Below, one piece after another: positions 10,928 through 36,779 of a DNA stretch of 64,000 nt. Position 1 is the first letter of the stretch; every line of letters begins with the position of its first letter. Origin of the DNA: Isosphaeraceae bacterium EP7 (GTDB taxonomy: Bacteria; Planctomycetota; Planctomycetia; Isosphaerales; Isosphaeraceae); the NCBI GenBank assembly GCA_038400315.1, contig CP151667.1:4351174-4415173 (forward strand). Reading direction: 5' to 3'. The notes beneath the pieces were generated by a model. The model was not told the DNA's origin. It was given only the letters and a program-made list of their open reading frames with translations, and ran no database searches. The position numbers and the translations under genes are program-made.

Positions 10928-11375
10928 GGGACCGGATCTCCAGGCTCGAGAGAGGTTGTCCGCGTGGTCCGGAGGTCGGACGTGACGACGGGAGTCGGAC
11001 GTGACGTCGAGGAACGCGGTCGGAGACCGGCCGAATGGCGATGACGAGCCGTGATCACGATCGATCAAGGGCCGCGAACCGCTTCGGAAGGCGTTGACCG
11101 CTCGAAGGGTGAGCTTCGGAATCGAGGCTCTGTCGCCCAGCTGCGCAGGTCCGTCCGAATCTTTCGCGACATGGCGTATTCTAACGGAGACTCGGCAGAT
11201 TTCAAGTTGCCCTGACGCCACGCAGGTTGGCGGCGGCTCTCGAGTCACCGGTCGGTCTCGGCCGCTTTCCTTGTAAGGAGAAGGATGTTATGTTAATCGG
11301 CCTCGCGGCCTTCTCCTGAAGCGCAACGGCTCAGGCATGGCGTCCCGGTTCTCCTCTGGATCCAGGAGTTGGGCC
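10928..11375. other. 448-base intergenic region between divergent antitoxin and MBOAT genes
   Basis: No convincing gene is seen here. Besides the 13-base direct repeat at 10975-11006, there is an inverted repeat GGAGAAGG (11277-11284) / CCTTCTCC (11309-11316) with a 24-base spacer, 59 bases before the MBOAT start. It could be an operator or a leader hairpin. The DNA before it (11170-11285) is locally richer in A+T than the flanking genes, so the MBOAT promoter probably lies there, but I could not fix a convincing -35/-10 pair. Confidence 0.4.
10975..11006. promoter_or_regulatory. 13-base direct repeat, candidate antitoxin operator
   Basis: GTCGGACGTGACG occurs at 10975-10987 and again at 10994-11006, 19 bases apart, about two helical turns. 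The pair lies 48-79 bases upstream of the antitoxin ATG, where a Phd/YefM autoregulatory site would sit. The role is inferred from position. Confidence 0.4.
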
Positions 11376-18417: not shown

Positions 18418-19425
18418 ATGTTCCAGCCCGCCCAAGGCTATCCCACTCACCAACTCCGACGTCTCCGCGGCCACGCCCAGATGCGTGCCCTGGTGCGTGA
18501 GAACCACCTCTCGACCGACGATTTCATCTATCCACTATTCCTCTATCACGGCACGAACCTGAAGCGCGAGATTGCGTCGATGCCGGGGCAATATCAGCTC
18601 TCGCTCGACCGCATGAGTGAGGTGATCGCCGAGGTCGTCGACTGCAAGATTCCGGCCGTCGTCCTGTTCGGGATCCCGCAGCACAAGGACGCCGACGGCT
18701 CGTCGGCCTTGCTCGACGACGGGATCGTCCAGCAGGCCATCCGCCGGATCAAGCTCCAGGCACCCGACCTGATGGTGATCACCGACGTCTGCTTCTGCGA
18801 ATACACCGACCACGGCCATTGCGGGCCTCTGGTGGATCGGGGCGGACGTATCGACGTGGACAACGCGGCGACTCTGCCCCTTCTGGCTCGGCAGGCCGTC
18901 AGCCACGCCAGGGCCGGTGCCGACATGGTGGCGCCCTCGGGGATGATGGACGGGATGATCGGCGCGATCCGCGCGGGACTCGATGAGTCGGGTTTCTCCC
19001 ACATTCCCATCCTTTCCTACGCCGCCAAGTTTGCCAGCGCCTATTACGGCCCCTTCCGCGACGCCGCCGAGAGCACCCCCTCCTTCGGCGACCGGAAGGG
19101 ATATCAAATGGACCCCGCCAACGGCCTTGAGCCGCTGCGCGAGGTGGCCATCGACCTGGCCGAGGGGGCCGACCTCGTCATGGTCAAGCCGGCGCTCGCG
19201 TACATGGATATCATCCGACGGGTCAAGGATCGGTTTGAGGTCCCCGTCGCGGCCTACAACGTCTCGGGCGAATACGCCATGGTGAAGGCCGCCGCCGCCC
19301 GTGGCTGGATCGACGAGCGCCGGGTCGTGCTGGAGACGCTCCTCGGATTCAAGCGCGCCGGTGCCGACATGATCCTGACGTATCACGCCCTGGATGCCGC
19401 CCGATGGCTCCGCGCGGGCGAGTGA
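18418..19425 (+). CDS. hemB: Delta-aminolevulinic acid dehydratase (porphobilinogen synthase)
   Basis: A 335-residue enzyme of tetrapyrrole synthesis that joins two 5-aminolevulinate molecules into porphobilinogen. The zinc-binding cysteines are present as [14 protein letters not shown] (Cys125, Cys127, Cys135), so this is the zinc-type enzyme. The two Schiff-base lysines are seen in SYAAKFAS (Lys204) and VMVKPALAY (Lys257). Length is normal. ATG 18418 starts the conserved [17 protein letters not shown] opening. It is followed after 35 bases by hemL, giving two haem-pathway steps on either side of 5-aminolevulinate in one likely transcript. Confidence 0.97.
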
Positions 19426-19460
19426 CGACCCCTCTCCATCATCCTGAGTCTGCGAGTTCC

Positions 19461-20786
19461 ATGACTCCAAGCACCCCCGCCTCGTCCGTCCCGTCGTATG
19501 AGCTGCCCCTCAGCCACAAGGCGTTTGTCCGGGCGAATCGATCGATTCCCGGCGGAGTGAATAGCCCGGCGAGGGCCTTCGGGGCCGTCGGCGGCGAGCC
19601 CCCGTTCATGGCTCGCGCCGCGGGGCAGTATCTCCACGACATCGACGGCCACACCTACATCGATTACATCGGCTCGTGGGGCCCGATGATCCTCGGCCAC
19701 GGCCACCCCCGGGTCCGCGCCGCGATCGAGGCCGCACTCGACCAGGGGACGACCTTCGGCGCACCGACCACGCGCGAGGTGGACATCGCCGAGGCGGTGA
19801 TCGCCGCCGTGCCGTCGATCGAGAAGGTTCGTTTCGTATCCTCGGGCACCGAGGCGTCGATGTCGGCCGTGCGCGTGGCGCGCGGCGTCACCGGCCGTGA
19901 CAAGATCATCAAGATGACCGGCCATTATCACGGGCACGTCGACGCCCTGCTCGTCGCGGCCGGATCGGCGGCCACCACGCTCGGCACCCCCAACAGCCCG
20001 GGTGTCACGGCCGGTGCCGTGGCCGACACGATCCTCTGCCCGTTCAACGACTCGAAGGCGGTCGCCGAGGCTTTCGCCCGCTATCCTGGGCAAATCGCCG
20101 CGGTCTTGCTGGAGCCAGTCGCCGGCAACATGGGGCTCGTCCCACCGAAGTCGGGGTACCTTGAGAGCCTCCGCGACCTGACCCGCAAGGATGGGGCGCT
20201 GCTGTTCTTCGATGAGGTGATGACCGGCTTCCGCCTCGCTTATGGCGGCGCCCAGGAGCGTTACGGCGTGACGCCCGACATGACCGGGTTGGGCAAGATC
20301 ATCGGCGGCGGGCTTCCCGCGGCGGCGTATGGCGCGGCCGGCTCGATCATGGATTTTGTTTCTCCGGCCGGGCCGATCTATCAGGCCGGGACCCTTTCGG
20401 GCAATCCGCTTGCCATGGCCGCGGGGCTGGCGACTTTGGAGGAGCTGAACGAAGGGACGCACTACGAACGGCTCGAGACGCTCTCGCGCAGGCTGGAAGA
20501 GGGGCTGCACCGCGCGGCGTTCGATGCCAGGGTGCCGCACGTCGTCCAGCGGGTCGGGAGCATGCTCACGCTCTTCTTCCATGACGGCCCTGTCGAGAAC
20601 TACGAGGACGCCAAGCGCAGCGATACGAAGCTCTTCGCCCGCTTCTTCTGGGAGATGCTCGCCCGGGGCGTCTACCTGCCGTGCAGCCAATTCGAGGCCG
20701 CCTTCGTCTCGTCGGCCCACACCGAGGCCGACATCGACCATACCATCAAGGCCGCGGCCGAGGCGCTCAAGGTGAGCGTCGGCTGA
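19461..20786 (+). CDS. hemL: Glutamate-1-semialdehyde 2,1-aminomutase
   Basis: A 441-residue PLP enzyme that turns glutamate-1-semialdehyde into 5-aminolevulinate in the C5 pathway. The opening SIPGGVNSPARAF is typical. The cofactor lysine is Lys279 in TGLGKIIGGGLP, and FDEVMTGFR around Asp251 binds the PLP ring nitrogen (family knowledge). Length is normal. ATG 19461 is the family start; the frame is open back into hemB. It lies directly downstream of hemB and ends before a hairpin. Its presence implies the tRNA-dependent C5 route; hemA is not in the window. Confidence 0.97.
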   Translation: MTPSTPASSVPSYELPLSHKAFVRANRSIPGGVNSPARAFGAVGGEPPFMARAAGQYLHDIDGHTYIDYIGSWGPMILGHGHPRVRAAIEAALDQGTTFGAPTTREVDIAEAVIAAVPSIEKVRFVSSGTEASMSAVRVARGVTGRDKIIKMTGHYHGHVDALLVAAGSAATTLGTPNSPGVTAGAVADTILCPFNDSKAVAEAFARYPGQIAAVLLEPVAGNMGLVPPKSGYLESLRDLTRKDGALLFFDEVMTGFRLAYGGAQERYGVTPDMTGLGKIIGGGLPAAAYGAAGSIMDFVSPAGPIYQAGTLSGNPLAMAAGLATLEELNEGTHYERLETLSRRLEEGLHRAAFDARVPHVVQRVGSMLTLFFHDGPVENYEDAKRSDTKLFARFFWEMLARGVYLPCSQFEAAFVSSAHTEADIDHTIKAAAEALKVSVG

Positions 20787-21053: not shown

Positions 21054-22271
21054 ATGGATGAGTTCCCCGCCGATCCGGCGAGCTTGGGGCCTCGGAGGCA
21101 CGCGCTCACCATCGTCATCCCCGTTTATAACGGGGGAGACGACCTGGGACGCTGCCTCCGGGGCCTCGGCACATCAACCCGGACAGATTACGAACTGATC
21201 GTCGTCGACGATGGCTCGACCGACGCCTCTGCGTCGCTCGCCGCCTCCTTCGGCGCGCGGGTCCTCCGTCGCGACCGCCCGGGTGGCCCTGCGCTGGCCC
21301 GCAATGACGGGGCCCACGTCGCCTCCGCACCGATCGTCTTTTTCCTCGACGCCGACGTCGTGGTCCACCCCGACACGCTCGCCCGCGCCATCGCCCGCTT
21401 CGACGCCGATCCCGGCTTGGCCGCCCTCTTCGGCTCCTACGACGATACGCCCGCCGACCCGGGGCTCGTCAGCCGATTCCGCAACCTCTTGCACCATTAT
21501 GTCCATCAGTCGGGCGAGTTTGTCGACGACACACGACCCGCCCGGACGTTCTGGACCGGCTGCGGCGCCATCCGCCGCTCCTCCTTCCTCGGCGTTGGCG
21601 GATTCGACCCCCGCCTCTATCGTCGTCCCGCGATCGAGGACATCGAGCTCGGCTATCGTCTGACCCGGGCCAAGCAGAAGATTGTCCTGGCCCGCGACGT
21701 CCTGGCCACTCACCTGAAGCGCTGGACGCTGGCCAACGTCGTGCGCACCGACATCGTCTGCCGGGGCGTCCCCTGGCTCTTGCTGATGAAGCGAGAGCGG
21801 ATCCCTGAGACGGATCTGAATGTCAAGTCGTCGCAGAAGCTCAGCGTGGCGCTGGCCGTGCTCGCGATCATGCTAGTCCCGACTTCCTTCTGGATTCCCG
21901 GCGCAGCGGCGGTCGCGGCCGGATGCGTGGGGCTCAATGCCTGGCTGAATCGGGACTTCTATCGTTTCCTGGCCCGCCGTGGCGGTTGGGGTTTTGCACT
22001 TCGGGCCTTGCCGCTACATTACGTCTACTTCGTCTGCTGCGCCTTGTCGGTCGTGATCGCCGAGGCGATCTGGCATCTCGGCCTCGGCCCTCGCGAGGCG
22101 GCGAAGGCCCAGGATGGGGCGACGGAACGGGGGGAGGCGGCCGGCGCAACGATGCGTCGCCCGCACGCCGCCAAGGCACGGAGGCCGGCCGCACCATGGA
22201 CGCGAAACCGAGAGTCGCGCTCGTCCGATCCGATAATCGACGAGGCGCGATCGCGCAGGCCCTCACGCTAG
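21054..22271 (+). CDS. GT2 glycosyltransferase with C-terminal membrane helices
   Basis: A 405-residue inverting glycosyltransferase of family 2. The GT-A fold shows TIVIPVYNGGDDL, the nucleotide-binding VDDGSTD near residue 50, FFLDADVVV (the DxD metal site near 100), and the acceptor block WTGCGAIRRSSFLGVGGFDPRLYRRPAIEDIELGYRL. Two or three hydrophobic helices follow (about 265-350), as in membrane-anchored GT2 enzymes that act on lipid-linked sugars (family knowledge). The end is basic and looks disordered. It opens a run of same-strand glycan genes and overlaps the DUF362 gene by 76 bases. The donor and acceptor sugars are unknown. Confidence 0.88.
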   Translation: MDEFPADPASLGPRRHALTIVIPVYNGGDDLGRCLRGLGTSTRTDYELIVVDDGSTDASASLAASFGARVLRRDRPGGPALARNDGAHVASAPIVFFLDADVVVHPDTLARAIARFDADPGLAALFGSYDDTPADPGLVSRFRNLLHHYVHQSGEFVDDTRPARTFWTGCGAIRRSSFLGVGGFDPRLYRRPAIEDIELGYRLTRAKQKIVLARDVLATHLKRWTLANVVRTDIVCRGVPWLLLMKRERIPETDLNVKSSQKLSVALAVLAIMLVPTSFWIPGAAAVAAGCVGLNAWLNRDFYRFLARRGGWGFALRALPLHYVYFVCCALSVVIAEAIWHLGLGPREAAKAQDGATERGEAAGATMRRPHAAKARRPAAPWTRNRESRSSDPIIDEARSRRPSR

Positions 22272-23362
22272 TTTCCGACGACCTGCGCCGCGTAGCCTCG
22301 CCCGAAGTTCTGCTGAAGCCGAATCTCGTCAGCCACTCGAGGCAGGGCCCGTCGACCCACGCCGATGCCCTGTCGGCCACCCTCGACGCCCTGTTCGCCG
22401 CGGGGTCGCAACGAGTCACCGTCGCCGAAGGGGCCAGCGACGCGGCCGCGGGCTTCGAACGCATGGGATACCTGCGCGAGACGGCCGGCCGGCCCGTCTC
22501 TTATTTCGACATCAACCGGGATGAAGATGCCTGGGAGATGCTCGACCTGGTCGGGGTGGACGGCCGGACGCTGCGGGCCCGCGTCTCGCGGACGATCGCG
22601 GGGTCATCCTGTCGCGTCTCGCTCGCGCTGGCCAAGACCCACATGATCGTCCCCCTGACGATGACGCTCAAGAATATGCTTTCCAGCATCCACCCGGCCG
22701 ACCGCGTGATGATGCACGGCTACCCGGCCGGCCAGAACGGCACGAAGGGTTGGAAACGGCACATCGTCAACTGGCTCAAGCGAGACGATCTCCTCGTCAA
22801 TCTGGCCACTCGCACGATGGGCCGGGGTCGTAACCTGGTCCACGCGGCCAGGCGGCTTGACTCGATCGACGGGCACACCCGCCTGAACGGGTCGGAGCGG
22901 CATTTCCTCAAGTCGGTCGCGGCGATGCAGGCCAATCTCGTCGCCCTCAATCACCTCGTCCGACCCCACTTCGGAGTGATCGACGCCTTCGTGGGCATGC
23001 ACCGGGAAGGACCGAGGCACGGCACCCCGATCCGGTTGGGGATCGCCGCGGCCGGGGCCGATCCGGTTGCCGTGGACGCCGTCGTCGCCGCCTCGATGGG
23101 CTTCGATCCCATGGAGATCGGCTACCTGCGGGACGCCGACGCCGCAGGGTTGGGTGTGGCACGGCTCGACGCCATCGAGATCGTCGGCGATCGCCTGGCG
23201 ACGGTAATTCGCAAGTGCGTGCCGCATTCGACGCACGTCATTCAGCGGCATGTTTCGAGCGTCGTGGGGCGCCCCGTCGGGGCCGCCGGACCCGCTCTCC
23301 GGGGCCCGCACGCGTCTGGGTCTCGCACGCTAGCCGGTCGTCCGAAGGAATCGGACGCCTGA
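22196..23362 (+). CDS. DUF362 domain protein in a glycan cluster
   Basis: A 388-residue DUF362 protein. The usual pattern is clear: RVALVRSDNRRGAIAQAL, then LKPNLVSH, a VAEGASD block, ALAKTHMIVPLTMTLKNML, and VIDAFVGMHREGPRHGTPIRLG. No 4Fe-4S ferredoxin cysteine cluster is present, unlike some DUF362 proteins. DUF362 has no firmly established biochemical role that I can name. ATG 22196 lies inside the preceding GT2 gene, and because the conserved domain begins at once, the 76-base overlap is real. Being between GT2 and oxidoreductase genes suggests a role tied to the glycan. The last 40 residues are Pro/Ala/Gly-rich and low in complexity. Confidence 0.8.
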   Translation: MDAKPRVALVRSDNRRGAIAQALTLVSDDLRRVASPEVLLKPNLVSHSRQGPSTHADALSATLDALFAAGSQRVTVAEGASDAAAGFERMGYLRETAGRPVSYFDINRDEDAWEMLDLVGVDGRTLRARVSRTIAGSSCRVSLALAKTHMIVPLTMTLKNMLSSIHPADRVMMHGYPAGQNGTKGWKRHIVNWLKRDDLLVNLATRTMGRGRNLVHAARRLDSIDGHTRLNGSERHFLKSVAAMQANLVALNHLVRPHFGVIDAFVGMHREGPRHGTPIRLGIAAAGADPVAVDAVVAASMGFDPMEIGYLRDADAAGLGVARLDAIEIVGDRLATVIRKCVPHSTHVIQRHVSSVVGRPVGAAGPALRGPHASGSRTLAGRPKESDA

Positions 23363-23426
23363 GACGGAAGCTCGACGAACGATGGTTCTCCGCATCCTGA
23401 TGCGGAACAACTCGGGAGGGCCTGGC

Positions 23427-24527
23427 ATGGATGCCGGCAATCGGGATCTGGGCGTGCTGGTGGTGGGCGTTGGTTTCCTGGGCTCCCTGAGGACAGCCGC
23501 GGTCGCCGCGGCTCGCGGGATGAAACTCGTCGCGGTGCTCGACCCCGACGAGGCCAGGGCCCGCGCCGTGGCCGCACGCCACGCGGTCTGCACGTTGCCC
23601 GACATGGCGACGGGCCTGGCGATGCCCGGCGTCGATCTGGTCATCGTCGCCACGCCTCACTCCGATCACGCCCAGGCCGTGCACGCCGCGCTCTCGGCCG
23701 GGAAACACGTCCTCTGCGAGAAGCCGCTCGCGACGAGCCCCGAAGACGCCCGCGCCCTCGCGTATCAAGCCGATGCCGCCGGCCTTCGGCTCGCCACCGG
23801 CCTGAATCACCGGTTCTACAAGCCGATCAGCGACGCGCTGGACCTGATCCGGTCCGGTGCCCTGGGCCGGGTCGACTCGGTACGCGCCACGATCGGCCAT
23901 TCTGCGACCGCCGAATTCCTCTCCGGATGGCACTCCGACCCGCGCATTTCCGGCGGAGGCACGCTGGCCGACAACGGCCCCCACGCCTGTGACCTGATCA
24001 GGCACCTGCTGACGGAAGTCGTTGCGGTGAAGGGCTACGTTCAGCAGGGCCTGCACCTGCCCGAAGGGTGCGAGACCGAGGCATTCGCCCTCTTCCGCAA
24101 CCATGACCTCGGCGTCGGCGAGCTGCACTCGAGTTGGAGCCAGCCCGAGGGCTACCTCACGCTGGAGATCCGCGGAACGCAGGGGCACCTGCGCGTCGAG
24201 ACCGCCCCCTGGTTGCTCACCGGTCGCGTGCGGTCGGGCAAGGCGATTCGCCGGCGATACGTCTCGGAGCGGCTGGCGGAGAAGGCTTATCGCTGGCGTC
24301 ACGGCTGCGAGTCGAGCCTTGTCCTTGAGCTGGAATCGTTCGTCGAAGGCCTGGCGACCGGCTTGCCGGGGCCGGCCGCGACCGGCTGGGATGGCGTGCG
24401 GGCCGCCGAGATGGTGGCGGCCGTTTATGAGTCGGATCGGACAGGCGAAGAAGAGTTCATCGCCCCCTGGCGCGATGCCCCCGAGATCCTCGTCCGCGAG
24501 GACGCCCCCAAGGAGCGCGTCGCATGA
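23427..24527 (+). CDS. Gfo/Idh/MocA-family sugar oxidoreductase
   Basis: A 366-residue NAD(P)-dependent oxidoreductase. The Rossmann motif GVGFLGS lies near residue 15, the HVLCEKPLAT signature with the conserved EKP lies near 100, and the C-terminal half-barrel follows with the GGGTLADNGPHACDLIRHLL region. Such enzymes oxidise or reduce sugars or nucleotide sugars (family knowledge). I chose ATG 23427 because GGGAGG lies about 7 bases upstream; ATGs at 23382 and 23400 are longer alternatives. It is coupled by an ATGA overlap to the polysaccharide deacetylase gene. It probably makes or trims a sugar used by the neighbouring glycosyltransferases. Confidence 0.88.
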   Translation: MDAGNRDLGVLVVGVGFLGSLRTAAVAAARGMKLVAVLDPDEARARAVAARHAVCTLPDMATGLAMPGVDLVIVATPHSDHAQAVHAALSAGKHVLCEKPLATSPEDARALAYQADAAGLRLATGLNHRFYKPISDALDLIRSGALGRVDSVRATIGHSATAEFLSGWHSDPRISGGGTLADNGPHACDLIRHLLTEVVAVKGYVQQGLHLPEGCETEAFALFRNHDLGVGELHSSWSQPEGYLTLEIRGTQGHLRVETAPWLLTGRVRSGKAIRRRYVSERLAEKAYRWRHGCESSLVLELESFVEGLATGLPGPAATGWDGVRAAEMVAAVYESDRTGEEEFIAPWRDAPEILVREDAPKERVA

Positions 24528-25294
24528 CGACCAAGGTCGCGGCATTCGGGCCGCTCCCCATCCTCACGTATCACGGCTTCGGGCTCGGTCACGCCGCCAC
24601 CACGGCCGATCCCGAATGGTTCGTCGAGACCCTCGACGCGCTCGCCGGCGAAGGCTTCCACTGCGTCGATCTGGAAGCCTGGATCCGGGCCGGACGGCCG
24701 GCCGTCGACCGAGGGTTCGCCCTGACGTTCGACGACGGCCTGGCCTCGATCCTGGACGTCGCGGAGCGGGTCGTGCATCACGGCTTCACCGCGACCGTCT
24801 TCGTCGTCACCGACCGCGTCGGGCAAGAGAATGACTGGCCCGGTCAGCCCGGTTGGGTTCCTCAGGAGCGGCTCCTTTCCTGGCCTGAACTGCTGGACCT
24901 TGACCGTTCAGGCCTCCGTCTGGGTGCCCACGGTCGGACTCACAGGCGTCTTGGTCGACTCGACGACGCAACGGTTGCCGACGAACTTCGCGGGTCTCAG
25001 GACGCGATCGAGCAGCGCACGGGCCGTGCCTGCTCGCTCTTCGCTTACCCCTACGGCGACACGTCCGCCGGGGTTCGCTCGCAGGTCCGCACGCTCTTCG
25101 ATGGCGGCCTCGGCACCTGTCCAGGCCTGGCATGCCTCGCGGATCACCCGGCCCACCTTCCTCGTGTCGACGCCTACGACTTGCGGACCCCGGCCGCCCT
25201 GCGTTCCCTGCTTGAAGGTTCGCTCGCAGGCCGCCTCCGCCTTCGATGGGTCGTCCGGGCCGCCCGAGCTTGTCTCGTTAGCCGACCGGACTGA
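24524..25294 (+). CDS. Polysaccharide deacetylase family protein (NodB-like)
   Basis: A 256-residue NodB-type deacetylase. The catalytic motifs are present: ILTYHGF, ALTFDDG with Asp70 and Asp71, the zinc-binding GAHGRTHRRL with His136 and His140, and FAYPYG at 173-178. The family removes N- or O-acetyl groups from sugars (family knowledge). There is no signal peptide, so it may act in the cytoplasm on an intermediate. Its ATG overlaps the oxidoreductase stop as ATGA, implying translational coupling. The substrate is unknown. Confidence 0.88.
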   Translation: MTTKVAAFGPLPILTYHGFGLGHAATTADPEWFVETLDALAGEGFHCVDLEAWIRAGRPAVDRGFALTFDDGLASILDVAERVVHHGFTATVFVVTDRVGQENDWPGQPGWVPQERLLSWPELLDLDRSGLRLGAHGRTHRRLGRLDDATVADELRGSQDAIEQRTGRACSLFAYPYGDTSAGVRSQVRTLFDGGLGTCPGLACLADHPAHLPRVDAYDLRTPAALRSLLEGSLAGRLRLRWVVRAARACLVSRPD

Positions 25295-25342
25295 TTCCTC
25301 GCGGATTCTCACCCTGATACGCCCGGCGAAAGGACCGCAACC

Positions 25343-26365
25343 TTGTCGACCTTGATCGCAGAATCGGCCGTCGCGACCCGGGCGATCGCTCCGTCAAGGG
25401 CGCTCGGGCTGGCCTGCGTCGTCTGCCGTGGCGAGCTTCTCTCGCATGGCGGCGGTCACGAATGCGAGGCGTGCAGTCACGTTTATCCGGACATCGCTGG
25501 CATCCCAGACATGCGCCTCGCCAACGATCGGTATCTCAGCCTGGACGAAGAGCGAGCGAAGGCCCTGCGTCTCGCCGCCGGTGAATCTACTGGCGATCTT
25601 GGATCGATGGTCTCGGCCTATTACGCGATGACCGCCGACGTGGACGCACGCCGTCGCGCCGGGTTCTCCTCGCACATCGAAGGGGCCGAACGCCGCGGCG
25701 CGACGCTCGCGGGCTTGCTCCCGAAACGGGGCCAGATCCTCGAGGTCGGATGCGGAAGCGGCGGATTCCTTTCGGCCTGTCGGGACAGGGGACTCGATGC
25801 GGTCGGCGTGGACATCGGCCTTCGTTGGCTGGTCATGGCGAGGCGTCGCCTGGCTGATCGTGGAGGGACGGCCTCCCTGGTCGCGGCGTCCGCCGATCGG
25901 CTCCCCTGGCCCGACGCCACCTTCGATGCGGTGGTGGCGGACAGCGTCCTGGAACATACCGATGACGCCCTTGCATCGCTCTGCGAGTGGCGACGCGTCC
26001 TGAAGCCCGGGGGCCGGCTGCTGGTCTGGTCGCCCAACCGTCACTTCCTGGGCCGCGATCCCCACGTCTTTCTGGTCGGTGTCGGCTGGATGCCGCGGTC
26101 CTGGGCCGAGCGATACGTACGGCTCCGTCGCGGTGACATCTGGCTACCGAACTGTCTTACTCCGGCCGAGTCGAGGACGCTTGCCGACGAGGCCGGGTTC
26201 TCGAACCTGATGGTCGGGCCGGTGGACATCCCCGAGTCGTGGGCCCGATCGCCTCGCCAGCGGCTAGCCATCCGCCTCACCTCGGCATGGACTCGGGTGC
26301 CGGTCATTCGATCCGCGTGGCTAGGCCTGGGCCCGCTCTGGCAACTTTCGGGGGTGGCTTCATGA
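25343..26365 (+). CDS. SAM methyltransferase with N-terminal zinc-ribbon-like segment
   Basis: A 340-residue class I methyltransferase. The first 60 residues hold four cysteines in a CxxC-x12-CxxC array (Cys25, 28, 41, 44), a Trm112-like small zinc ribbon of the kind seen in polysaccharide-cluster methyltransferases. The SAM site ILEVGCGSGG is near residue 132, followed by GVDIG and a DSVLEHTDD motif IV. The start TTG 25343 has AAAGGA 9 bases upstream. It overlaps the next methyltransferase by ATGA. It may methylate a sugar or a lipid carrier in the glycan pathway; this is inferred from context only. Confidence 0.83.
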   Translation: MSTLIAESAVATRAIAPSRALGLACVVCRGELLSHGGGHECEACSHVYPDIAGIPDMRLANDRYLSLDEERAKALRLAAGESTGDLGSMVSAYYAMTADVDARRRAGFSSHIEGAERRGATLAGLLPKRGQILEVGCGSGGFLSACRDRGLDAVGVDIGLRWLVMARRRLADRGGTASLVAASADRLPWPDATFDAVVADSVLEHTDDALASLCEWRRVLKPGGRLLVWSPNRHFLGRDPHVFLVGVGWMPRSWAERYVRLRRGDIWLPNCLTPAESRTLADEAGFSNLMVGPVDIPESWARSPRQRLAIRLTSAWTRVPVIRSAWLGLGPLWQLSGVAS

Positions 26366-27147
26366 GCATCGGCCTGAGTATCGACGAGCCCGCCTATTTC
26401 GATCGTCTGGCGCAAGTTGAGGCCGAGCACTGGTGGTCTCGCGGCATGTGGCGCCTCGCGTCGCATTGGCTCGACGCGGCCATCGGCGAGACCCACCTCG
26501 CCCGCGCCCTTGATGTCGGCTGCGGGGCAGGGGGGACTGCGATCCGCCTCGCCGATCGCTATCGGATCGGCGAGATCATCGGCCTCGATCCGAGCGAGGC
26601 GGCACTCGACCGGGCCCGGCGCCGCCACGACGGGCCGCTCATCCTGGGCTCGGCCCTTGAACTCCCATTCGAGGATGCCTCGTTCGACCTGGTCGCCTGC
26701 CTCGACGTGATGCAGCACCTGCCCGAGGACGACGATGCGAGGGCCGCTTCGGAGCTGCACCGGGTCCTCCGGCCTGGTGGCCTGGCGCTGGTCCGGTCCA
26801 ATGCGCTCAGCCGGCGTGCCTATCGGGGCGAGGGGGTGCGTGCCCTGGGCCTGCGGCACCTCGTCGGGGTGCTCAGCGACGCAGGGTTGAAGATTCGTCG
26901 TGCCAGCCGCGCCAACTGTCTTCCGGCGATGGCCGAGGAGGTGCGAGGGCGGCTCGGGTCACGACCGAGGCAGGTCAACGCCTCGAAACCGGAGGGGGGC
27001 GGCCTCTGCATCCGGGTCCCATCGCCGGCAGTCAACCGCATCATGGGTGCGGTCTCGACGGCCGAGGCATGGGTGGCGGGCAGGGCGGGCGTGCCGCTCC
27101 CTTACGGGCATAGCACGATGGTCCTGGCCACACGCGAGGGAGGTTGA
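26362..27147 (+). CDS. SAM-dependent methyltransferase
   Basis: A 261-residue class I methyltransferase with ALDVGCGAGG near residue 50, GLDPSEAAL, and a CLDVMQHLPEDD motif IV. The N-terminal EAEHWWSRGMWR opening is common in methyltransferases of exopolysaccharide gene clusters. ATG 26362 overlaps the preceding stop (ATGA). The following glycosyltransferase starts 5 bases after its stop, so the three are almost surely one transcript. Target unknown. Confidence 0.85.
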   Translation: MSIGLSIDEPAYFDRLAQVEAEHWWSRGMWRLASHWLDAAIGETHLARALDVGCGAGGTAIRLADRYRIGEIIGLDPSEAALDRARRRHDGPLILGSALELPFEDASFDLVACLDVMQHLPEDDDARAASELHRVLRPGGLALVRSNALSRRAYRGEGVRALGLRHLVGVLSDAGLKIRRASRANCLPAMAEEVRGRLGSRPRQVNASKPEGGGLCIRVPSPAVNRIMGAVSTAEAWVAGRAGVPLPYGHSTMVLATREGG

Positions 27148-27151
27148 CGCC

Positions 27152-28387
27152 ATGCGCATCGGCATCGACGGCGCCTGCCTGTCTAACCGCCGCGGCTTCG
27201 GCCGCTTCGCCCGCGAGAGCCTCAAGGCCCTGGCCCGCGCCGGTTCCAGGCACGAATTCAAGGTCTTCGTCGATCGCCCTTCGATCGATTTGGTCGAGGT
27301 TCCGTCAGGCTTCGAGACCGTCCCCGTCGAAGTACGCGAGGCCCCGAGCCGGGCCGCCTCGGCGAACGGGCGTCGAGGGCTGCGGGACATGCTGGCGGTC
27401 GGTCGATCGATGGCCCGCTCCCATCTCGACCTGGCCTTCTTCCCGGCCAGCTACAGCTTCGTGCCGGTCTGGAACGTCGGCAAGGTCGTGGTGACGATGC
27501 ACGACACCCTTGCGCTGGCTCATCCCGAGCTGGTCTTCCCAACACGCGCGGGGCGGATCGCCTGGGCGATCAAGGAGCACGTCGCCGTGCTGCGGGCCGA
27601 CCGCATCCTGACCGTCTCCGACTCCGCGAGGCGCGACCTGATCGACTGGTTCCGCCTCCCCGAGAGGCGGGTCCGCGTGGTCACCGAGGGACCAGACGAC
27701 GCGTTCCATTGCAGGCCATTCGGGGCCGAATCCGACGCAATCTTGCGTAAATATACCCTGGAGCCCGGAGAGCGGTTCTTCCTGTACGTCGGCGGCCTGA
27801 GCCCGCACAAGAACCTGCCGAGGTTGGTCGAGGCCCTTGCCCGTGCCGGCCGAGACGATGCCCGGCTGATCCTGGTTGGAGACCTCGGCGATGTGTTCCA
27901 CACCCACGTCCCCGAGCTTCGAGCGGTCATTGAGAGGCTGGGGTTGGGGCACCGGGTCCACCTCGCCGGCTTCGTCCCCGATGACGAGCTGGCCTATCTC
28001 TACAGCCGGGCCTTTGCCCTGGTGCAGCCGTCGCTGATGGAGGGCTTCGGCCTTCCGCCGGTCGAAGCCATGGCCTGCGGCACGCCGGTTCTGTCGAGCA
28101 CAGCGGGCTCGCTTCCCGAGGTCGTCGGCCCCGCCGGTCGGTTCTTCGACCCCAGGGATATCGACGCCATCGCCCGGTCGATGCGTGAGCTTCTGGACGA
28201 TCCCGCCGGGCGTGATCGCCTGGCCGAGGTCGCCGCGCGACGCGCGGGCAAGTTCACCTGGGATGCCTCGGCCCGGTCGATGCTCGACTGCTTCGAGGAA
28301 CTCGCGCCCAAGCGGGATCGCCCCGCCGCCCCGCATCAAGGCCCGTCGTCGTCCATCGCCGGGCGAAGGCCGAGGATCCGCGCATGA
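27152..28387 (+). CDS. GT4 glycosyltransferase
   Basis: A 411-residue retaining glycosyltransferase of the GT-B fold, family 4. The N-terminal half contains MRIGIDGACLSNRRGFGRF and TVSDSARRDLIDWF; the C-terminal half contains LYVGGLSPHKNLPRLVEA and the family signature EGFGLPPVEAMACGTPVLSS. It probably adds one sugar to a lipid-linked acceptor at the inner membrane (family knowledge). ATG 27152 follows a GAGGGAGG ribosome site; the frame is open further upstream inside the methyltransferase gene. It overlaps the next GT4 gene by ATGA. Confidence 0.9.
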   Translation: MRIGIDGACLSNRRGFGRFARESLKALARAGSRHEFKVFVDRPSIDLVEVPSGFETVPVEVREAPSRAASANGRRGLRDMLAVGRSMARSHLDLAFFPASYSFVPVWNVGKVVVTMHDTLALAHPELVFPTRAGRIAWAIKEHVAVLRADRILTVSDSARRDLIDWFRLPERRVRVVTEGPDDAFHCRPFGAESDAILRKYTLEPGERFFLYVGGLSPHKNLPRLVEALARAGRDDARLILVGDLGDVFHTHVPELRAVIERLGLGHRVHLAGFVPDDELAYLYSRAFALVQPSLMEGFGLPPVEAMACGTPVLSSTAGSLPEVVGPAGRFFDPRDIDAIARSMRELLDDPAGRDRLAEVAARRAGKFTWDASARSMLDCFEELAPKRDRPAAPHQGPSSSIAGRRPRIRA

Positions 28388-29670
28388 CCTTCTGCATGCT
28401 GACCACCTTCTTCGGCCCTCACAGCTTCGGTGGCGACGCCGCCTTCGTCGACCGGCTCTCGCGGGCACTTGCCAGGAGAGGGCACGACGTCCACGTCATC
28501 TACTGCCGCGATGCCTTTGAGATGTCGCGCGGCGAGCAGACGCCAAGGCCCTACGAACCGCCGCCGGGCGTGACAATTCACGCGCTCTCGAGTCCGCTGG
28601 GGTTGCTGTCGCCGCTGGCAACCCACCAGACCGGCGCCCCCTGGTTCAAGCTGCGGGCCATTCGAAAGATTCTCCAAGACGTAAGGCCCGATGTCGTCCA
28701 TTTCCACAACCTCTCGCTCATCGGGGGCCCGGCCTTGCTGAAGGTCCAGGTCCCTCATGCCGTCAAGCTGATGACCGCACACGAGCACTGGCTCGTCTGC
28801 CCCCAGCATGTCCTCTGGAAGACCGGCGAGGGTTTGTGCCAGGCCCGCGATTGCGTCCGCTGCTGCCTGAAGGCGGGGCGGCCGCCGCAGCTTTGGCGGT
28901 CGAGCGATCTTCTCGAAGACTCGCTGACGCATCTCGACGCGCTCATCGCGCCGAGCGCATCGACCGTCGCCGAGCACGCCCGCCGCGGCCTGCGTAGTCC
29001 CATGCTCCACCTGCCCTATTTCCTGCCCGATGACTACGCGGGGACGGCCGCCCCTGCGCCGACTCCGTCACACGACCGGCCTTACGTGGTGGCCGCCGGG
29101 CGTCTGGAGGAAATCAAGGGCTTCCAGGACGCCATCGACGCGATGCGCCGGCTCCCCGAGGTCGACCTGCGGATTGCCGGCACGGGCGCCTACGAGGCAG
29201 TCCTCCGCGCCAGGGCCGCAGGCATGCCGAACGTCCACTTCGAGGGCCGACTCGACTCCACCCAGCTCGCCGCCCTCTTCCGCGGCGCCCGCGCCCTGGT
29301 TGTCCCCAGCCTGGTCTATGAGACGTTCGGGTACGTCGTCCTGGAAGCGTTCGCCGAGCGTACGCCCGTGATCGTTCGCGACCTTGGCGCCTTGCCCGAA
29401 TTGGTGGCGTCCAGCGGCGGCGGGTTCGTGTTCCAATCCGTCGAGGGGATGGTCGACGCCATCCGTCGGCTGGCCGACCCCGAACTCCGCGTTCGGTTGG
29501 GCGACAGCGGACATCGGGCCTGGAAGAGGGTCTGGTCGGAAGACGATCACCTCGACGCCTATTTCTCCCTCATCGAAGACTGCCAGCGCTCCCGCCATTG
29601 GGGCGAAGAGGCCGCAACCCTGCCGGCAGCGATCCCGGAGGCGAAACGGGCCGCCGCTCAGCCAGTCTGA
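28384..29670 (+). CDS. GT4 glycosyltransferase with Cys-rich insertion
   Basis: A 428-residue GT-B enzyme. The C-terminal half has VAAGRLEEIKGFQDAIDAM and the E-x7-E signature region VPSLVYETFGYVVLEAFAERTPV. In the N-terminal half, after HFHNLSLIGG, there is a Cys-rich stretch (about 138-162: LVCPQHVLWKTGEGLCQ, then ARDCVRCCLK) that could hold a metal. Similar Cys-rich loops are known in some exopolysaccharide GT4 enzymes, but the role is not established. It starts with an ATGA overlap and ends 13 bases inside the convergent GT4 gene. Confidence 0.87.
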   Translation: MTFCMLTTFFGPHSFGGDAAFVDRLSRALARRGHDVHVIYCRDAFEMSRGEQTPRPYEPPPGVTIHALSSPLGLLSPLATHQTGAPWFKLRAIRKILQDVRPDVVHFHNLSLIGGPALLKVQVPHAVKLMTAHEHWLVCPQHVLWKTGEGLCQARDCVRCCLKAGRPPQLWRSSDLLEDSLTHLDALIAPSASTVAEHARRGLRSPMLHLPYFLPDDYAGTAAPAPTPSHDRPYVVAAGRLEEIKGFQDAIDAMRRLPEVDLRIAGTGAYEAVLRARAAGMPNVHFEGRLDSTQLAALFRGARALVVPSLVYETFGYVVLEAFAERTPVIVRDLGALPELVASSGGGFVFQSVEGMVDAIRRLADPELRVRLGDSGHRAWKRVWSEDDHLDAYFSLIEDCQRSRHWGEEAATLPAAIPEAKRAAAQPV

Positions 29671-30758
29671 TTCGCGGTGTAGGCTTCTTCGAGTACCCTT
29701 CCGACCCCCTGGGCGAAGGCGGCCACCGTAAATCGGGCCGCGTGCGCGAGCCCGCGTGTGATCCGCACCGATCGCTCCGCCGGATCGTCCGCCAGGCGGT
29801 CTAACGCCGCGGCGATCGAGCCCGGCCCGACCTCGCCGAGATCGTAGGCCGCGTCTCCTCCCGACTCGGCGAGGGCCCCGCGCACCGAGGTCACCGCGGG
29901 GCATCCGCTGGCGAGTGCTTCCAGGATAGGCAGGCCGAATCCTTCTTCCGACGACGGATAGACCAAGGCCCTGGCGCCGGCGACCAAACCGTACAGGACG
30001 GCGTCCGGCACGCGCCCGGCCGCGATCACACCATCAGGGCCTCCGAGGGCTTCGGTGCCGGGCCCGGCGAGGACAAGCTTGATAAGTGGGTGATTCCGTC
30101 GGTGACGCTCGAATCCGGCGAGCAATGCGGGAAGGTTGCGGCGTACAGACGGCTTGCCGAGGAAGAGGAGATAATCGGCATCGCCGAGACCGACGGCTGC
30201 ACGGGCTCCGAGCACGACGGGATCGGAAGCCGTCCGGGGGTGGAACTCGGGGGCGACGGCCGGATCGACCGTCCGAAGACGATCGGGAGCGATCCCGAGG
30301 TGCTCGATCACGCCGCGAAAGGTCGCCCGTGATGGGACGATCACCAGGCTTGCCCGGTGGGCTGCCAGTCGCATTCGGCGACCGAACCAAACGCGGTTTC
30401 GCCACGTAAATCCCTGCGGGGCGGTCCAGAGCAGGGTGTCGAACAGCACCAGAACCGATGGCCCCGGCCAGTTGGCCGGGATCAGGTTGGTGGGCGCGAA
30501 GAGCACGTCTCCAGGACGATACGACCTGCCCAGCGCAATCCGCTCCCAGGCCAGTCCGGGCCAACCGACCCCTCGGACTTGTGCCGTCATGTTCGGGCAA
30601 TTCGGGATCAAATCCAGTCCCGCGGGATCGTGCAAGATGACCAGAGTCTCGGACGGCGGGCCGCCCGCATCGGCCCAGCCGTGTAGCAAAACTTCCAGAT
30701 AGCGACCAACACCCGTCTGTCCCAAACCCAGTCGCCGGCCGTCGACTACGATACGCAT
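29658..30758 (-). CDS. GT4 glycosyltransferase, convergent
   Basis: A 366-residue GT-B glycosyltransferase on the opposite strand. It begins MRIVVDGRRLGLGQTGVGRY, then has VPSRATFRGVIEHLGI, LLFLGKPSVRRNLPALLAGF and YPSSEEGFGLPILEALASGCPAV, the GT4 signature. ATG 30758 starts the conserved domain; the open frame upstream has no family support. Its last 13 bases overlap the end of the plus-strand GT4 gene, so transcription from the two sides converges here. It probably works with the cluster but is under its own promoter. Confidence 0.88.
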   Translation of the reverse strand: MRIVVDGRRLGLGQTGVGRYLEVLLHGWADAGGPPSETLVILHDPAGLDLIPNCPNMTAQVRGVGWPGLAWERIALGRSYRPGDVLFAPTNLIPANWPGPSVLVLFDTLLWTAPQGFTWRNRVWFGRRMRLAAHRASLVIVPSRATFRGVIEHLGIAPDRLRTVDPAVAPEFHPRTASDPVVLGARAAVGLGDADYLLFLGKPSVRRNLPALLAGFERHRRNHPLIKLVLAGPGTEALGGPDGVIAAGRVPDAVLYGLVAGARALVYPSSEEGFGLPILEALASGCPAVTSVRGALAESGGDAAYDLGEVGPGSIAAALDRLADDPAERSVRITRGLAHAARFTVAAFAQGVGRVLEEAYTANQTG

Positions 30759-33622: not shown

Positions 33623-34606
33623 ATGAGTCGGATTCCATCGAGGGTCGGAGCCGGCATGAATCCGATCGACAGCTCGCTCCTGTTCGAAGATGACCCCTAC
33701 GCCGCCCACTATCGCCGCGAGCCGCGGACCGGCATGCCCGTGCTCGCCCTCGTCTTCGAGAGGCCCGGAGCGGCGGGGACGGCCGAGGTCGTCGACGGCC
33801 TGACAAGGCTCCTCAACCGCAAGGGGAGGAAGCCACGGGTCGAGATCGTCCGGGTCGATGATGGGCAGGCGCACGCGGAAGTGCTGGCAAACGTGCTAGC
33901 CGAGGGCGACGAGCCGCTGATCCTGATCACCACGGCGACGAAGCCCTGGAGCGAAGCCCATCTGACGGCCTTGCTCAAGGCGATCGACCAGTCCGACCAT
34001 GTCATCGGCCGGCGCAAATGTTCCTTCTCAGGACGGTTGCGACGCTGGGTTTCGAGCCTGCCCTGGAGATGGATCTTCGCCGTGCCGGTCCGGGACGTGC
34101 ATTCCCCATGTCGCCTCCATCGCCGCGAGGCCCTGGCCGCGATCCCGCTCCAGTCGGCATCCGACTTCCTCGACGTTGAGATCCTGGCCAAGGCGACGTT
34201 CTTCAGCCAGTTGATCGACGAGGTGGACGTGCCGCCGCTGCCCTCGGACCCTTCAAGTGTCGCGATCCGCGATCTCGCGGATGTGTTTCGCCATCCTCGC
34301 CTGAAGTTCGTCGAGCCGTCAGTTCCAGCGGAAGATTTTCAATGCGATGAGGAACGTCCCGATGGTCCAGGCCATCAGGATAGCCAGCGCGGGGGCGACG
34401 GCGACGAACCCGGCCCCTTCGAGCATCACCATCCTGAGGGCGGAGATGATCTGGGTCAGGGGCAGGGCCTGAATGAAGGGCTGGGCGGAGGCAGGGAATC
34501 GCTCCGAGGAGAAGAAGACCCCCGAGAAGAGCCACATCGGCAACATGACCAGGTTCATCAACCCGCTGACCGTCTCGGTGGTGGTGGCCCGGCTGGCGAC
34601 CAGTAG
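33623..34606 (+). CDS. GT2-like protein of a planctomycete type, 3' end overlaps the convergent ABC permease
   Basis: A 327-residue frame whose first about 230 residues look like a divergent glycosyltransferase family 2 domain: a Rossmann-like start (MPVLALVFERPGAAGTAEVV), RDVHSPCRLHRREALAAIP and SDFLDVEILAKATFFSQLIDEV. No clear DxD is seen, so the catalytic state is unsure. From about residue 232 the frame runs for 288 bases antisense to the permease gene and the protein becomes low-complexity (Gly, His, Glu and Asp). The natural C-terminus may therefore be near 34310, with the rest an unusual extension or the sign of a frameshift. Start ATG 33623 or ATG 33656, both with a ribosome site. Cautious call. 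Confidence 0.6.
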   Translation: MSRIPSRVGAGMNPIDSSLLFEDDPYAAHYRREPRTGMPVLALVFERPGAAGTAEVVDGLTRLLNRKGRKPRVEIVRVDDGQAHAEVLANVLAEGDEPLILITTATKPWSEAHLTALLKAIDQSDHVIGRRKCSFSGRLRRWVSSLPWRWIFAVPVRDVHSPCRLHRREALAAIPLQSASDFLDVEILAKATFFSQLIDEVDVPPLPSDPSSVAIRDLADVFRHPRLKFVEPSVPAEDFQCDEERPDGPGHQDSQRGGDGDEPGPFEHHHPEGGDDLGQGQGLNEGLGGGRESLRGEEDPREEPHRQHDQVHQPADRLGGGGPAGDQ

Positions 34607-35389
34607 GCCGATCCCGGCGAAGGCCATGGCGCCCACGACGTCGACCAGGATCAACAGCCAGAACGATCCGCGAATCGGCATGCCGAACATCCAGGTCCCC
34701 AGCACCAGCAAGACGCCCAGGTCGGGGATCAGGAACGTGAGCCTGGCCCCGATCAATGCCAGCAGGAAGTTCCGCCTGGGCATCGGTGTGGCGCGGAAGA
34801 GCTTTAAAAGCTTGGCCACGCGGAAGTTGACCAGCAGGAATCCGATTCCCCAGAGCCCACCCCCCATCGTGTTCAGGCCGATCAGGCCGGGGATGAGAAA
34901 GTCGATGTAACGCGAGCCCGGCTCCTGCACGGCCTCATCGGCGGTCTTCAGGGCATCGAGGCGGCCGAAGCCGACCTGGAGGACGTTGTCGACCGCGGCG
35001 CGAGCGGTCAGGGCCTCGGGCCGGGTTGGGTCATATCTGTAGGTGAGGGGTGCATTCGTTGACGTCCCCGGGATGACGATCAGCGGCGTCTTGCCGGTTT
35101 CCAGCCTCGACTTCGCCTGGTCGACGCCCAGGACCTTGATCAGGAGGTCGGGCGTGCCAGCCTGGCGTTTTGCCTTGTATTCCTCGAGCTTCGCGAGGAT
35201 CTCTGGAGTGCCCGCGTTCTCCACGAGGTCGAGCTGGACCAGCTCGGCCGGCTTGCTCCGAAATGCAAGGCCCAGGCCGATGGCCAGGACTGTGGGGAAC
35301 CCGTAGACCCAGAAGATCCGCGCGGGCTGGCGGAAGAACTCCCGGAGCCTGGAGAAATAGAGTTCTCTGAGGGAGTGGTCTCGCGGCAT
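34319..35389 (-). CDS. ABC-2 type transporter permease
   Basis: A 356-residue ABC-2 membrane protein. One membrane helix near the start (residues about 25-45, FWVYGFPTVLAIGLGLAF), a large extracytoplasmic loop (about 45-160) as in the YhgE/drug-exporter-like ABC-2 group, then five helices from about 165 to 350, including GGGLWGIGFLLVNF, LVLGTWMFGMP and LPMWLFSGVFFSSERFP. It pairs with the ATPase gene 97 bases upstream on the same strand and forms an exporter with it; the cargo is unknown. ATG 35389 has only a weak GAG. Its last 288 bases lie antisense to the GT2-like open frame. Confidence 0.88.
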   Translation of the reverse strand: MPRDHSLRELYFSRLREFFRQPARIFWVYGFPTVLAIGLGLAFRSKPAELVQLDLVENAGTPEILAKLEEYKAKRQAGTPDLLIKVLGVDQAKSRLETGKTPLIVIPGTSTNAPLTYRYDPTRPEALTARAAVDNVLQVGFGRLDALKTADEAVQEPGSRYIDFLIPGLIGLNTMGGGLWGIGFLLVNFRVAKLLKLFRATPMPRRNFLLALIGARLTFLIPDLGVLLVLGTWMFGMPIRGSFWLLILVDVVGAMAFAGIGLLVASRATTTETVSGLMNLVMLPMWLFSGVFFSSERFPASAQPFIQALPLTQIISALRMVMLEGAGFVAVAPALAILMAWTIGTFLIALKIFRWN

Positions 35390-35485
35390 GAAGTCGCTCG
35401 ATGGGGCGTGTGGTTCGGGCGGGCGGCCCGAGATTGTGCGAATCGGGTCGTTCGGCTCTCGCGGCGCAAGGTCAGTCGGCTCGGC

Positions 35486-36481
35486 CTAGCGTCGGCGTCC
35501 TCGTCGACGCTTCGGCTTGACCTCTGCGTCCGACTCGTCGGCCTCGCGAAGATGGCGGCCGGTTAGCGACACGAAGACATCCTCGAGGCTCACCTGGCGC
35601 GTGTTGAGCCGGGCGAGCTGACGCCCTCGCGCATTCAGGTCTTCGAGCAGGGCCGGGATCGCAAGATGGGGCTTGCCCACGGTCAGGGCGAATCCGTCGG
35701 CCTCGGCACGGCTGGCGAGCACCGTCAGGAGCGGGGCGAATTCCGAGGCCTCGGCGGGGGGGCTTTCGTCCGTCAGGGCGAACTCGACGACGTGCTCTCC
35801 GCCGAGTCTGGAGATGAGGTCGGCGGGCGACCCCAGGGCGATCACCTTCCCTTTGTCCACGATCGCCACCCGGTCGCAGAGCCGCTCGGCCTCGTCCATG
35901 TAGTGCGTGGTCAGCACGGTCGTGCGCCCGCGCTCGTGGAATTCGTTGATCACGTCCCAGAGCTGCCGCCGAGACTGGGGGTCGAGGCCGGTCGTCGGCT
36001 CGTCGAGGAACAGCAATTCCGGGTCGCCCACAAGCGCGATCGCCACCGCGAGCCGCTGCTGCTGGCCGCCGGAGAGGGTCTCGACGAATGCACCCGCCTT
36101 GCCTTCCAGCGAGACACGCCTGAGGGCCTCGATCGGCTCCAGGCCGGAGGGATAGAAGCTGCGGAAGAGGCGGGTGAGCTCCAGGACGGTCTGCTTGTCG
36201 GGGAACCTCGTCTCCTGGAGCGTGACCCCGATCCGGCCCCGAAGCTCCTTCTCGTGCGTCTTCCAGCGTCTTCCCAGCACCTCGACGTCGCCGGAGGTCG
36301 GCTCGTTGAGGCCTTCGAAGATCTCGACGGTGGTCGTCTTGCCCGCGCCGTTGGGGCCGAGGAGGCCGAAGCATTCGCCGACGTAGACCTCAAGGTTTAG
36401 CCCATCAACCGCGTCGACCGGGCCTTCGCGACCTTTGTATCGCTTGCGGAGTTCCTGCACGCGGATGGCGCAATCTGGCAT
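35486..36481 (-). CDS. ABC transporter ATP-binding protein
   Basis: A 331-residue ABC ATPase of the ABC-2/drug-exporter group. Walker A GPNGAGKTT at 42-50, the signature LSGGQQQRL at 136-144, Walker B LLFLDEP at 156-162, and the H-loop TTHYMDEAE near 194. After the ATPase core there is a C-terminal extension of about 110 residues with a DUF4162-like shape, common in ABC-2 exporters (family knowledge), ending in basic [12 protein letters not shown] 36481 begins MPDCAIRVQELRKRYKG; TTG 36490 would add three residues. With the downstream permease it should form a two-gene exporter. Confidence 0.92.
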   Translation of the reverse strand: MPDCAIRVQELRKRYKGREGPVDAVDGLNLEVYVGECFGLLGPNGAGKTTTVEIFEGLNEPTSGDVEVLGRRWKTHEKELRGRIGVTLQETRFPDKQTVLELTRLFRSFYPSGLEPIEALRRVSLEGKAGAFVETLSGGQQQRLAVAIALVGDPELLFLDEPTTGLDPQSRRQLWDVINEFHERGRTTVLTTHYMDEAERLCDRVAIVDKGKVIALGSPADLISRLGGEHVVEFALTDESPPAEASEFAPLLTVLASRAEADGFALTVGKPHLAIPALLEDLNARGRQLARLNTRQVSLEDVFVSLTGRHLREADESDAEVKPKRRRGRRR

Positions 36482-36779
36482 CGTGGGCAAGCTCGCGAGG
36501 TCGGGGCGAGGTGGGGGAGGGGCCCCCAGATTCCCGGACCATCATAACAAGGAATCAGGCGCCCGCCCACCGGCCGGAAGCGGCCGGCTCGCTCAAGCCC
36601 CGGGGCGGATGGCACCGATGAATGACTTGAGCCGAGCGTGCCAGGAGCGGCTGCCGGCAGGCCACCGCCCCTCCCAATCCACGGAGGGGTCGGGCCCGAT
36701 TGACGGTCGTCCCGGGACCAATTCGCCCGGTGCGAACCGAACGTCGGCCGTCGTCCCAGGATGCTGAAGGATTCCATCG

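Follow-up and report, generated by a model that had tools for sequence, protein, structure and literature searches.

The 64,000-nucleotide stretch of DNA analysed here (the window; C1:4351174-4415173 of the 7.2 Mb, five-contig genome of Isosphaeraceae bacterium EP7) carries nine genes at positions 21054-30758, eight on the plus strand and one convergent, that form a glycan-assembly locus conserved across the family Isosphaeraceae. Comparison of 45 genomes of this family supports a core of two glycosyltransferases, GT2 and GT4a, to which an optional set of genes is attached, including one for a protein with the DUF362 domain. Intact DUF362 occurs together with a polysaccharide deacetylase, and decayed DUF362 has lost most of its candidate active-site residues. 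We consider it probable that this is a lipid-linked cell-surface glycan locus particular to Isosphaeraceae, with a decoration module that includes a DUF362 enzyme of the LarA fold. We propose that GT2, which is predicted to be membrane-anchored, and GT4a would build the glycan core, and that the optional module would add and decorate sugars through intact DUF362, a Gfo/Idh/MocA dehydrogenase, an N-deacetylase, two methyltransferases (MT1 and MT2) and a further glycosyltransferase, GT4b, joined in several relatives by a second GT2 and a Wzx-type flippase. DUF362 would act within this module as a LarA-fold enzyme that probably changes a sugar acid, or a precursor of that sort, in its stereochemistry or redox state. 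Where the module was lost, the active site of DUF362 would have been lost too, and in several genera decayed DUF362 may survive as a partner protein without catalysis, with GT2 the simplest choice of partner.

Gene order and domains recur across the family, so the locus is more than a chance grouping; its initial annotation as a glycan-assembly locus is borne out. At E ≤ 1e-60, GT2 was found in 42 of the 45 genomes and GT4a in all 45. At the same threshold GT4a was found in 36 of 198 Planctomycetia genomes drawn, all 36 from this family, with no match in the 162 Planctomycetia genomes outside it. Orthologues of DUF362 (E ≤ 1e-25) were similarly confined, with 17 of 297 genomes of the class having one, all 17 Isosphaeraceae. 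We read gene order by tblastn, since simple calling of open reading frames (ORFs) picked some shadow frames. The order is modular: GT2-[DUF362]-[second GT2]-[Gfo-deacetylase-MT1-[flippase]-MT2]-GT4a-[GT4b]-[GT4c reversed]. The stretch from DUF362 through GT4b is in one piece in six genomes (the window, G008, G026, G037, G038 and G043), and GT2 lies immediately upstream of DUF362 in 26 of the 30 genomes with an orthologue or remnant, the other four belonging to genus g18, in which parts of the locus are rearranged. GT4b adjoins GT4a in module-bearing genomes, although in G011 the GT4a-GT4b pair is about 0.9 Mb away from the rest of the locus, and GT4c follows GT4b convergently in six relatives (G023, G026, G037, G038, G043 and G044). 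MT2 was detected in 18 of the 45 genomes (E ≤ 1e-15), and G004, G006 and G029 have only off-locus matches to it. The minimal form, GT2-GT4a without detectable DUF362 (tblastn, E ≤ 1e-5), is found in 12 genomes, one of which (G006) has a Gfo-like gene between the two. Hence, DUF362 is not the hub of the cluster, as the initial annotation had placed it; the core is GT2-GT4a.

An alignment was used to sort DUF362 into intact and decayed forms: 14 of the 45 genomes have an intact one and 16 a decayed one, in 12 none was detected, and three (G010, G024 and G044) are undecided. G012 counts among the intact although its contig ends in the DUF362 gene. Thirty genomes have DUF362 at the locus or, in g18, near it. 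The deacetylase was detected in 15 of the 45 genomes (E ≤ 1e-15). Both intact DUF362 and the deacetylase are present in 13 genomes and neither in 29; one genome has only intact DUF362 and two have only the deacetylase. All three exceptions are assemblies of limited completeness: in the first, which is 81% complete, the contig ends inside DUF362, and the other two are 68% and 74% complete. Among the 26 best genomes (completeness of 90% or more, contamination of 5% or less), seven have both, 19 have neither, and there is no exception.

Conservation points to eight candidate active-site residues in DUF362: K41, N43, E78, K147, H149, K159, N160 and H174. These positions are kept in 112 of 112 cells of the alignment in the intact forms of 14 genomes, and in 13 of 128 cells in the 16 decayed forms, eight of the 13 being H149. 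Outside the family, K41, N43, K147, H149, K159 and N160 are conserved in 29-31 of 33 DUF362 proteins, H174 in 23 and E78 in nine. Conservation of six of the eight positions in these distant proteins argues that most of the eight would matter for activity. Conversely, R15, D64, D105, R129 and P257 are present in 0-2 of the 33 proteins from outside the family, yet are kept in 14-16 of the 16 decayed forms. A second residue set is kept in 122 of 128 cells of the decayed forms, a descriptive figure, since its columns were chosen after seeing which ones stayed. The retention of R15, D64, D105, R129 and P257 would be compatible with a pseudoenzyme that has kept a binding role; internal salt bridges would explain these residues equally well.

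The six DUF362 frames of g17 are all full length (367-376 amino acids). K41, N43, E78, K159 and H174 are replaced or deleted in all six, with substitutions that include P at K159 and T at N43, and H149 remains in four; D263, D289, D294 and G302 are kept in all six. The median pairwise ratio of non-synonymous to synonymous change (dN/dS; 15 pairs, simple Nei-Gojobori count) is 0.291 for decayed DUF362, 0.246 for GT2 and 0.267 for GT4a. The g17 proteins thus combine loss of candidate residues, whose catalytic status is predicted, with retention of fold residues and purifying selection, as is expected of a pseudoenzyme. GT2 would be the simplest candidate for its partner, since it always adjoins decayed DUF362.

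Prediction of the DUF362 structure, which the initial annotation had suggested as a check, points to a LarA-like fold. The model was built from a 36-row alignment of the window protein and proteins of related loci, and has a pLDDT of 87.2 and a pTM of 0.88. Foldseek ranks 1-18 are LarA-family chains (E 2e-6 to 5e-4). In VIA-align, LarA-family structures reach Z 14.8-18.4, followed by 4nar, a Thermotoga maritima protein that also matches the fold of the model, at 14.3; the next row is at 4.9. The top match is malate racemase 6d6z (Z 18.4, 2.6 Å over 214 residues), and nine LarA-family entries align at Z 17.5-18.4 over 213-219 residues with deviations of 2.6-2.9 Å, which places the predicted model in the LarA fold. 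A passage of PMC11770544 is consistent with such a relationship in joining DUF362 and DUF2088 within Pfam clan CL0471. A shared fold, here a predicted one, shows no function, and a LarA-like reaction of DUF362 is possible.

Several observations count against this reading of the locus. On a GT2+GT4a tree, built quickly and long-branched, at least four changes have to be assumed for intact DUF362 and as many for the deacetylase, and supported branches hold only two independent pairs of changes, both in the same direction (sign test, p 0.5), a number too small for significance to be attained; here the intact trait was not scored for G010, G024 and G044, nor the deacetylase trait for G012. DUF362 matches of some kind are present in 43 of the 45 genomes, with three in all in EP7, and these other DUF362 proteins could be stand-ins for the one at the locus. 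The contrast between kept and lost residues concerns subsets of columns only: across 79 columns invariant in intact forms, the mean retention in decayed forms is 8.5 of 16 for family-wide columns and 7.4 of 16 for clade-specific ones, and the clade-specific N107, K195, D197 and N247 are lost in all 16. In g20, decayed DUF362 has a dN/dS of 0.394, compared with 0.199 and 0.196 for its neighbours, a pattern more in keeping with slow loss than with a new role. Similarity to LarA is also limited in some respects: the Foldseek TM-scores are low (0.26-0.42, with root-mean-square deviations of 5-12.5), and comparison of sequence profiles is weak, with E 0.41 for a narrower LarA set and, for a broader set, a score of 26.2 that exceeds 100 of 100 column shuffles and is close to the 24.7 of an unrelated methyltransferase profile. 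Lastly, the nine EP7 genes include no initiating transferase, polymerase or ligase; for polymerase and initiating transferase the rest of the genome was not searched.

If DUF362 and the decoration genes were lost together merely as neighbours, by deletion or drift, they need share no biochemical step, and the decayed frames would be slow pseudogenes. Adjoining genes do tend to go together, and independent losses are few. Moreover, decayed forms in G004, G009, G014 and g20 have shrunk to 206-279 amino acids, and these short forms, with the weaker constraint in g20, make slow loss the likely end. However, in 16 genomes DUF362 stayed an open frame while substitutions removed most of the polar, family-wide conserved residues from its candidate site, and the six g17 frames are full length with a dN/dS like that of their neighbours. 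In G023, intact DUF362 and the remaining module genes are on two separate contigs, so close linkage alone does not keep DUF362 and the module together. On balance, we regard loss as mere neighbours as somewhat unlikely.

A second alternative is that the locus makes an unexported soluble glycoside or glycolipid, such as a modified membrane lipid, and that the flippase of its relatives belongs to another step. The initial annotation saw no flippase or export gene in the cluster, and this is correct for the nine genes; the best flippase match elsewhere in the EP7 genome, at C1:1982809, is 29% identical and no clear orthologue, so we rejected relocation of the gene. As a trait of the system, however, the lack of a flippase does not stand, since several relatives carry one at the locus. 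Five relatives with the same gene order (G008, G034, G037, G038 and G043) have an ORF of 435-579 amino acids between MT1 and MT2; it matches Polysacc_synt in Pfam in G038 (39 bits) and G008 (50 bits), and in the others was judged from translated ORFs or gap size. This insert is missing, as in EP7, from G011, G023, G024 and G026. Between DUF362 and Gfo, the G011 locus (L085:8564-11326) encodes an MBOAT O-acyltransferase together with an AlgX-like protein, a pair typical of O-acetylated exported polysaccharides, which suggests that its glycan may be acetylated. Given these export-type genes in relatives, we consider an unexported product unlikely.

The second GT2 of the optional module was recognised in a similar manner. 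Some relatives have an ORF of about 300-400 amino acids between DUF362 and Gfo; that of G038 is a GT2 by Pfam (24.2 bits against a cut-off of 23.3), and those of other relatives were judged from translated ORFs or gap size. We rejected relocation of this gene in EP7 also, the best matches being 27-28% identical with no clear orthologue. Separately, an ABC-2 permease (PF12698) and an ABC ATPase (PF00005) are encoded side by side at window positions 34319-36490 on the minus strand, 3.6 kb past the cluster, and could export something.

A stronger version of our proposal would make DUF362 a LarA-fold glycan epimerase and would have its descendants give up catalysis to serve as obligate, non-catalytic subunits of the neighbouring GT2; we think this quite unlikely.

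LarA itself is a racemase that uses the nickel-pincer nucleotide (NPN) cofactor. With the LarA residues taken from passages of PMC7583248 and PMC11851776, H149 pairs with the catalytic His and K159 with the NPN-binding Lys in the weak profile alignment, 10 residues apart in both proteins. By eye only, H174 would be equivalent to a nickel ligand, and no residue stands out as the counterpart of LarA H108 (by eye, E78). A Pfam scan at E ≤ 0.001 gave DUF362 alone, with no match to Lar_N (PF09861). LarC is encoded in 43 of the 45 family genomes and Lar_N proteins in all 45, so the NPN cofactor can probably be made in the family, judging by these genes; being present nearly throughout, they do not single out DUF362. 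That DUF362 is an NPN enzyme of the LarA kind, epimerising a 2-hydroxy-acid group on the glycan or a precursor, we therefore consider decidedly unlikely: the predicted fold, the spacing of H149 and K159 and the probable supply of cofactor speak for it, and a profile score hardly above those of unrelated profiles, the lack of a Lar_N match and of an evident H108 equivalent, and the non-discriminating spread of Lar proteins speak against it.

Other searches bear on the identity of these proteins. A profile search for a solved relative of DUF362 gave none at E ≤ 1, and phmmer against solved structures returned five rows (E 0.19-0.89), all of them either ribosomal protein L23 or ribonuclease PH, which we rejected. 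We also rejected an iron-sulfur role, the window protein having two Cys and the CxxCxxCxxxC motif being flagged in one of 45 relatives. The G011 genome encodes a LarA that has, over 425 residues, the same sequence as the Isosphaera pallida protein of PDB 9eia. In many family genomes there is also a further, distant set of Lar_N-like proteins, roughly 450 amino acids long; they match profile positions 30-194 with about 30-40 bits and may form a link between LarA and related folds.

Each of the nine EP7 proteins has a Pfam domain above cut-off, in agreement with the domains first assigned to them. GT2 (21054-22271, plus strand; 405 amino acids) matches PF00535 with 96 bits, has a DAD motif, and has two hydrophobic C-terminal segments by hydropathy (residues 263-281 and 318-336). 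The DUF362 protein (22196-23362, plus; 388 amino acids) matches PF04015 with 108.8 bits, where the gathering cut-off is 24, over positions 1-199 of the 200 in the profile, and is thus a member of the DUF362 family. Next is the Gfo/Idh/MocA oxidoreductase (23427-24527, with an alternative ATG at 23382, plus; 366 amino acids; PF01408, 93.6 bits), in which EKP and DxGxHxxD motifs are both present, and then the polysaccharide deacetylase (24524-25294, plus; 256 amino acids; PF01522, 64.8 bits), with TFDDG and HxxxH motifs. The class I S-adenosylmethionine-dependent methyltransferases both match PF08241: MT1 (25343-26365, plus; 340 amino acids; 79.6 bits) has a TTG start and two N-terminal CxxC pairs (CVVC/CEAC), and MT2 (26362-27147, plus; 261 amino acids) scores 84.6 bits. 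They are followed by GT4a (27152-28387, plus; 411 amino acids; PF00534, 122 bits), GT4b (28384-29670, plus; 428 amino acids; PF00534, 85.4 bits) and the convergent GT4c (29658-30758, minus; 366 amino acids; PF13692, 55.5 bits). EX7E-type motifs are present in GT4b and GT4c; the pattern used gave no match in GT4a, yet EGFGLPPVE can be read in its translation. TFDDG/HxxxH, EKP, DAD and EX7E-type motifs are familiar signatures of these enzyme classes, and with them the deacetylase, Gfo, GT2, GT4b and GT4c look functional. Among the matches listed, none of the nine proteins reached an NCBIfam family cut-off.

The plus-strand genes had been described as packed with overlaps of ATGA or longer. This holds for four of the seven junctions: GT2/DUF362 (76 nucleotides, the DUF362 start codon falling within GT2), Gfo/deacetylase, MT1/MT2 and GT4a/GT4b (4 nucleotides each). 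The other three are short gaps, of 64 or 19 nucleotides between DUF362 and Gfo, depending on the start chosen, 48 between the deacetylase and MT1, and 4 between MT2 and GT4a. The convergent genes GT4b and GT4c share 13 nucleotides at their 3' ends. Scans for promoters and terminators gave no signal above shuffles.

Directly upstream of GT2, the window has hemB-hemL (18418-20786). In six genomes, the window and five relatives, hemL precedes GT2 by no more than 1 kb, which means that part of the family carries the glycan locus at the same chromosomal site. A DEAD-box helicase gene is downstream of the locus in seven genomes, and other genomes with long flanks, for example those of g17 and g20, have neither hemL nor the helicase gene nearby. 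Two g17 genomes have a metallophosphoesterase gene directly after GT4a (L092:8534-9715 and L094:10159-11352), and three further g17 loci have ORFs of similar size there. Elsewhere in the window are a 206-amino-acid ORF whose C-terminal part contains a Phd/YefM antitoxin domain (10628-11248, minus strand) and a 2116-amino-acid protein (54493-60843) that combines a right-handed beta helix with FG-GAP repeats.

The locus differs from each of the known systems that it resembles. DUF362 shares its predicted fold with the LarA/Lar_N (DUF2088) NPN racemases over approximately residues 11-344, but is 9-14% identical to them in the aligned part, has no clear counterpart of the first catalytic His, and has glycan genes for neighbours; we know it here from sequence and a model. 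Wzx/Wzy-type loci also combine a GT2, GT4s and a deacetylase, with a Wzx-type flippase in relatives of EP7; however, the nine EP7 genes lack a polymerase, initiating transferase, outer-membrane export gene and flippase, and add DUF362 and two methyltransferases. NCBIfam also gave weak matches, below cut-off, to two proteins of the Caulobacter holdfast set, HfsG (33 of 500 bits) and HfsH (26 of 400 bits). The DUF362 domain is found across several bacterial phyla and archaea. DUF362 proteins of other phyla share K41, N43, K147, H149, K159 and N160 with the window protein, but are 21-27% identical to it and are not beside glycosyltransferases. Of the two signs on which the initial annotation was to stand or fall, a conserved gene order is present within the family, and an association of DUF362 with glycosyltransferases in other genomes fails as a general link: outside the family, a GT2- or GT4-like ORF lies within 5 kb of DUF362 in 3 of 43 loci, a count that rests on hidden Markov models of the family GT2, GT4a and GT4b only, misses other glycosyltransferase families and includes several short contigs. 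A literature search on DUF362, alone or with glycosyltransferase, gave no publication on this locus among the papers listed, and one for Npun_F2552 gave no match; PMC12423673, which matched on DUF362, concerns DUF3623 in its matching passages.

Glycan assembly is an ordinary kind of locus, here in an understudied lineage. Its point of interest is that an unassigned, widespread domain is tied to a defined decoration module and is caught losing its candidate active site. Loss or decay of DUF362 where the adjoining sugar-decorating genes are gone hints at its working partners, and the keeping or losing of the candidate site together with those genes narrows the reactions that DUF362 may catalyse. 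Its intact and decayed forms are two forms that can be tested, and the family-wide GT2-GT4a pair is a possible handle on the surface glycans of planctomycetes. If the stronger version of our proposal, with its glycan epimerase, is correct, this would be the first DUF362 protein with an inferable reaction context, and the change of an enzyme into a glycosyltransferase partner could be traced gene by gene within one bacterial family.

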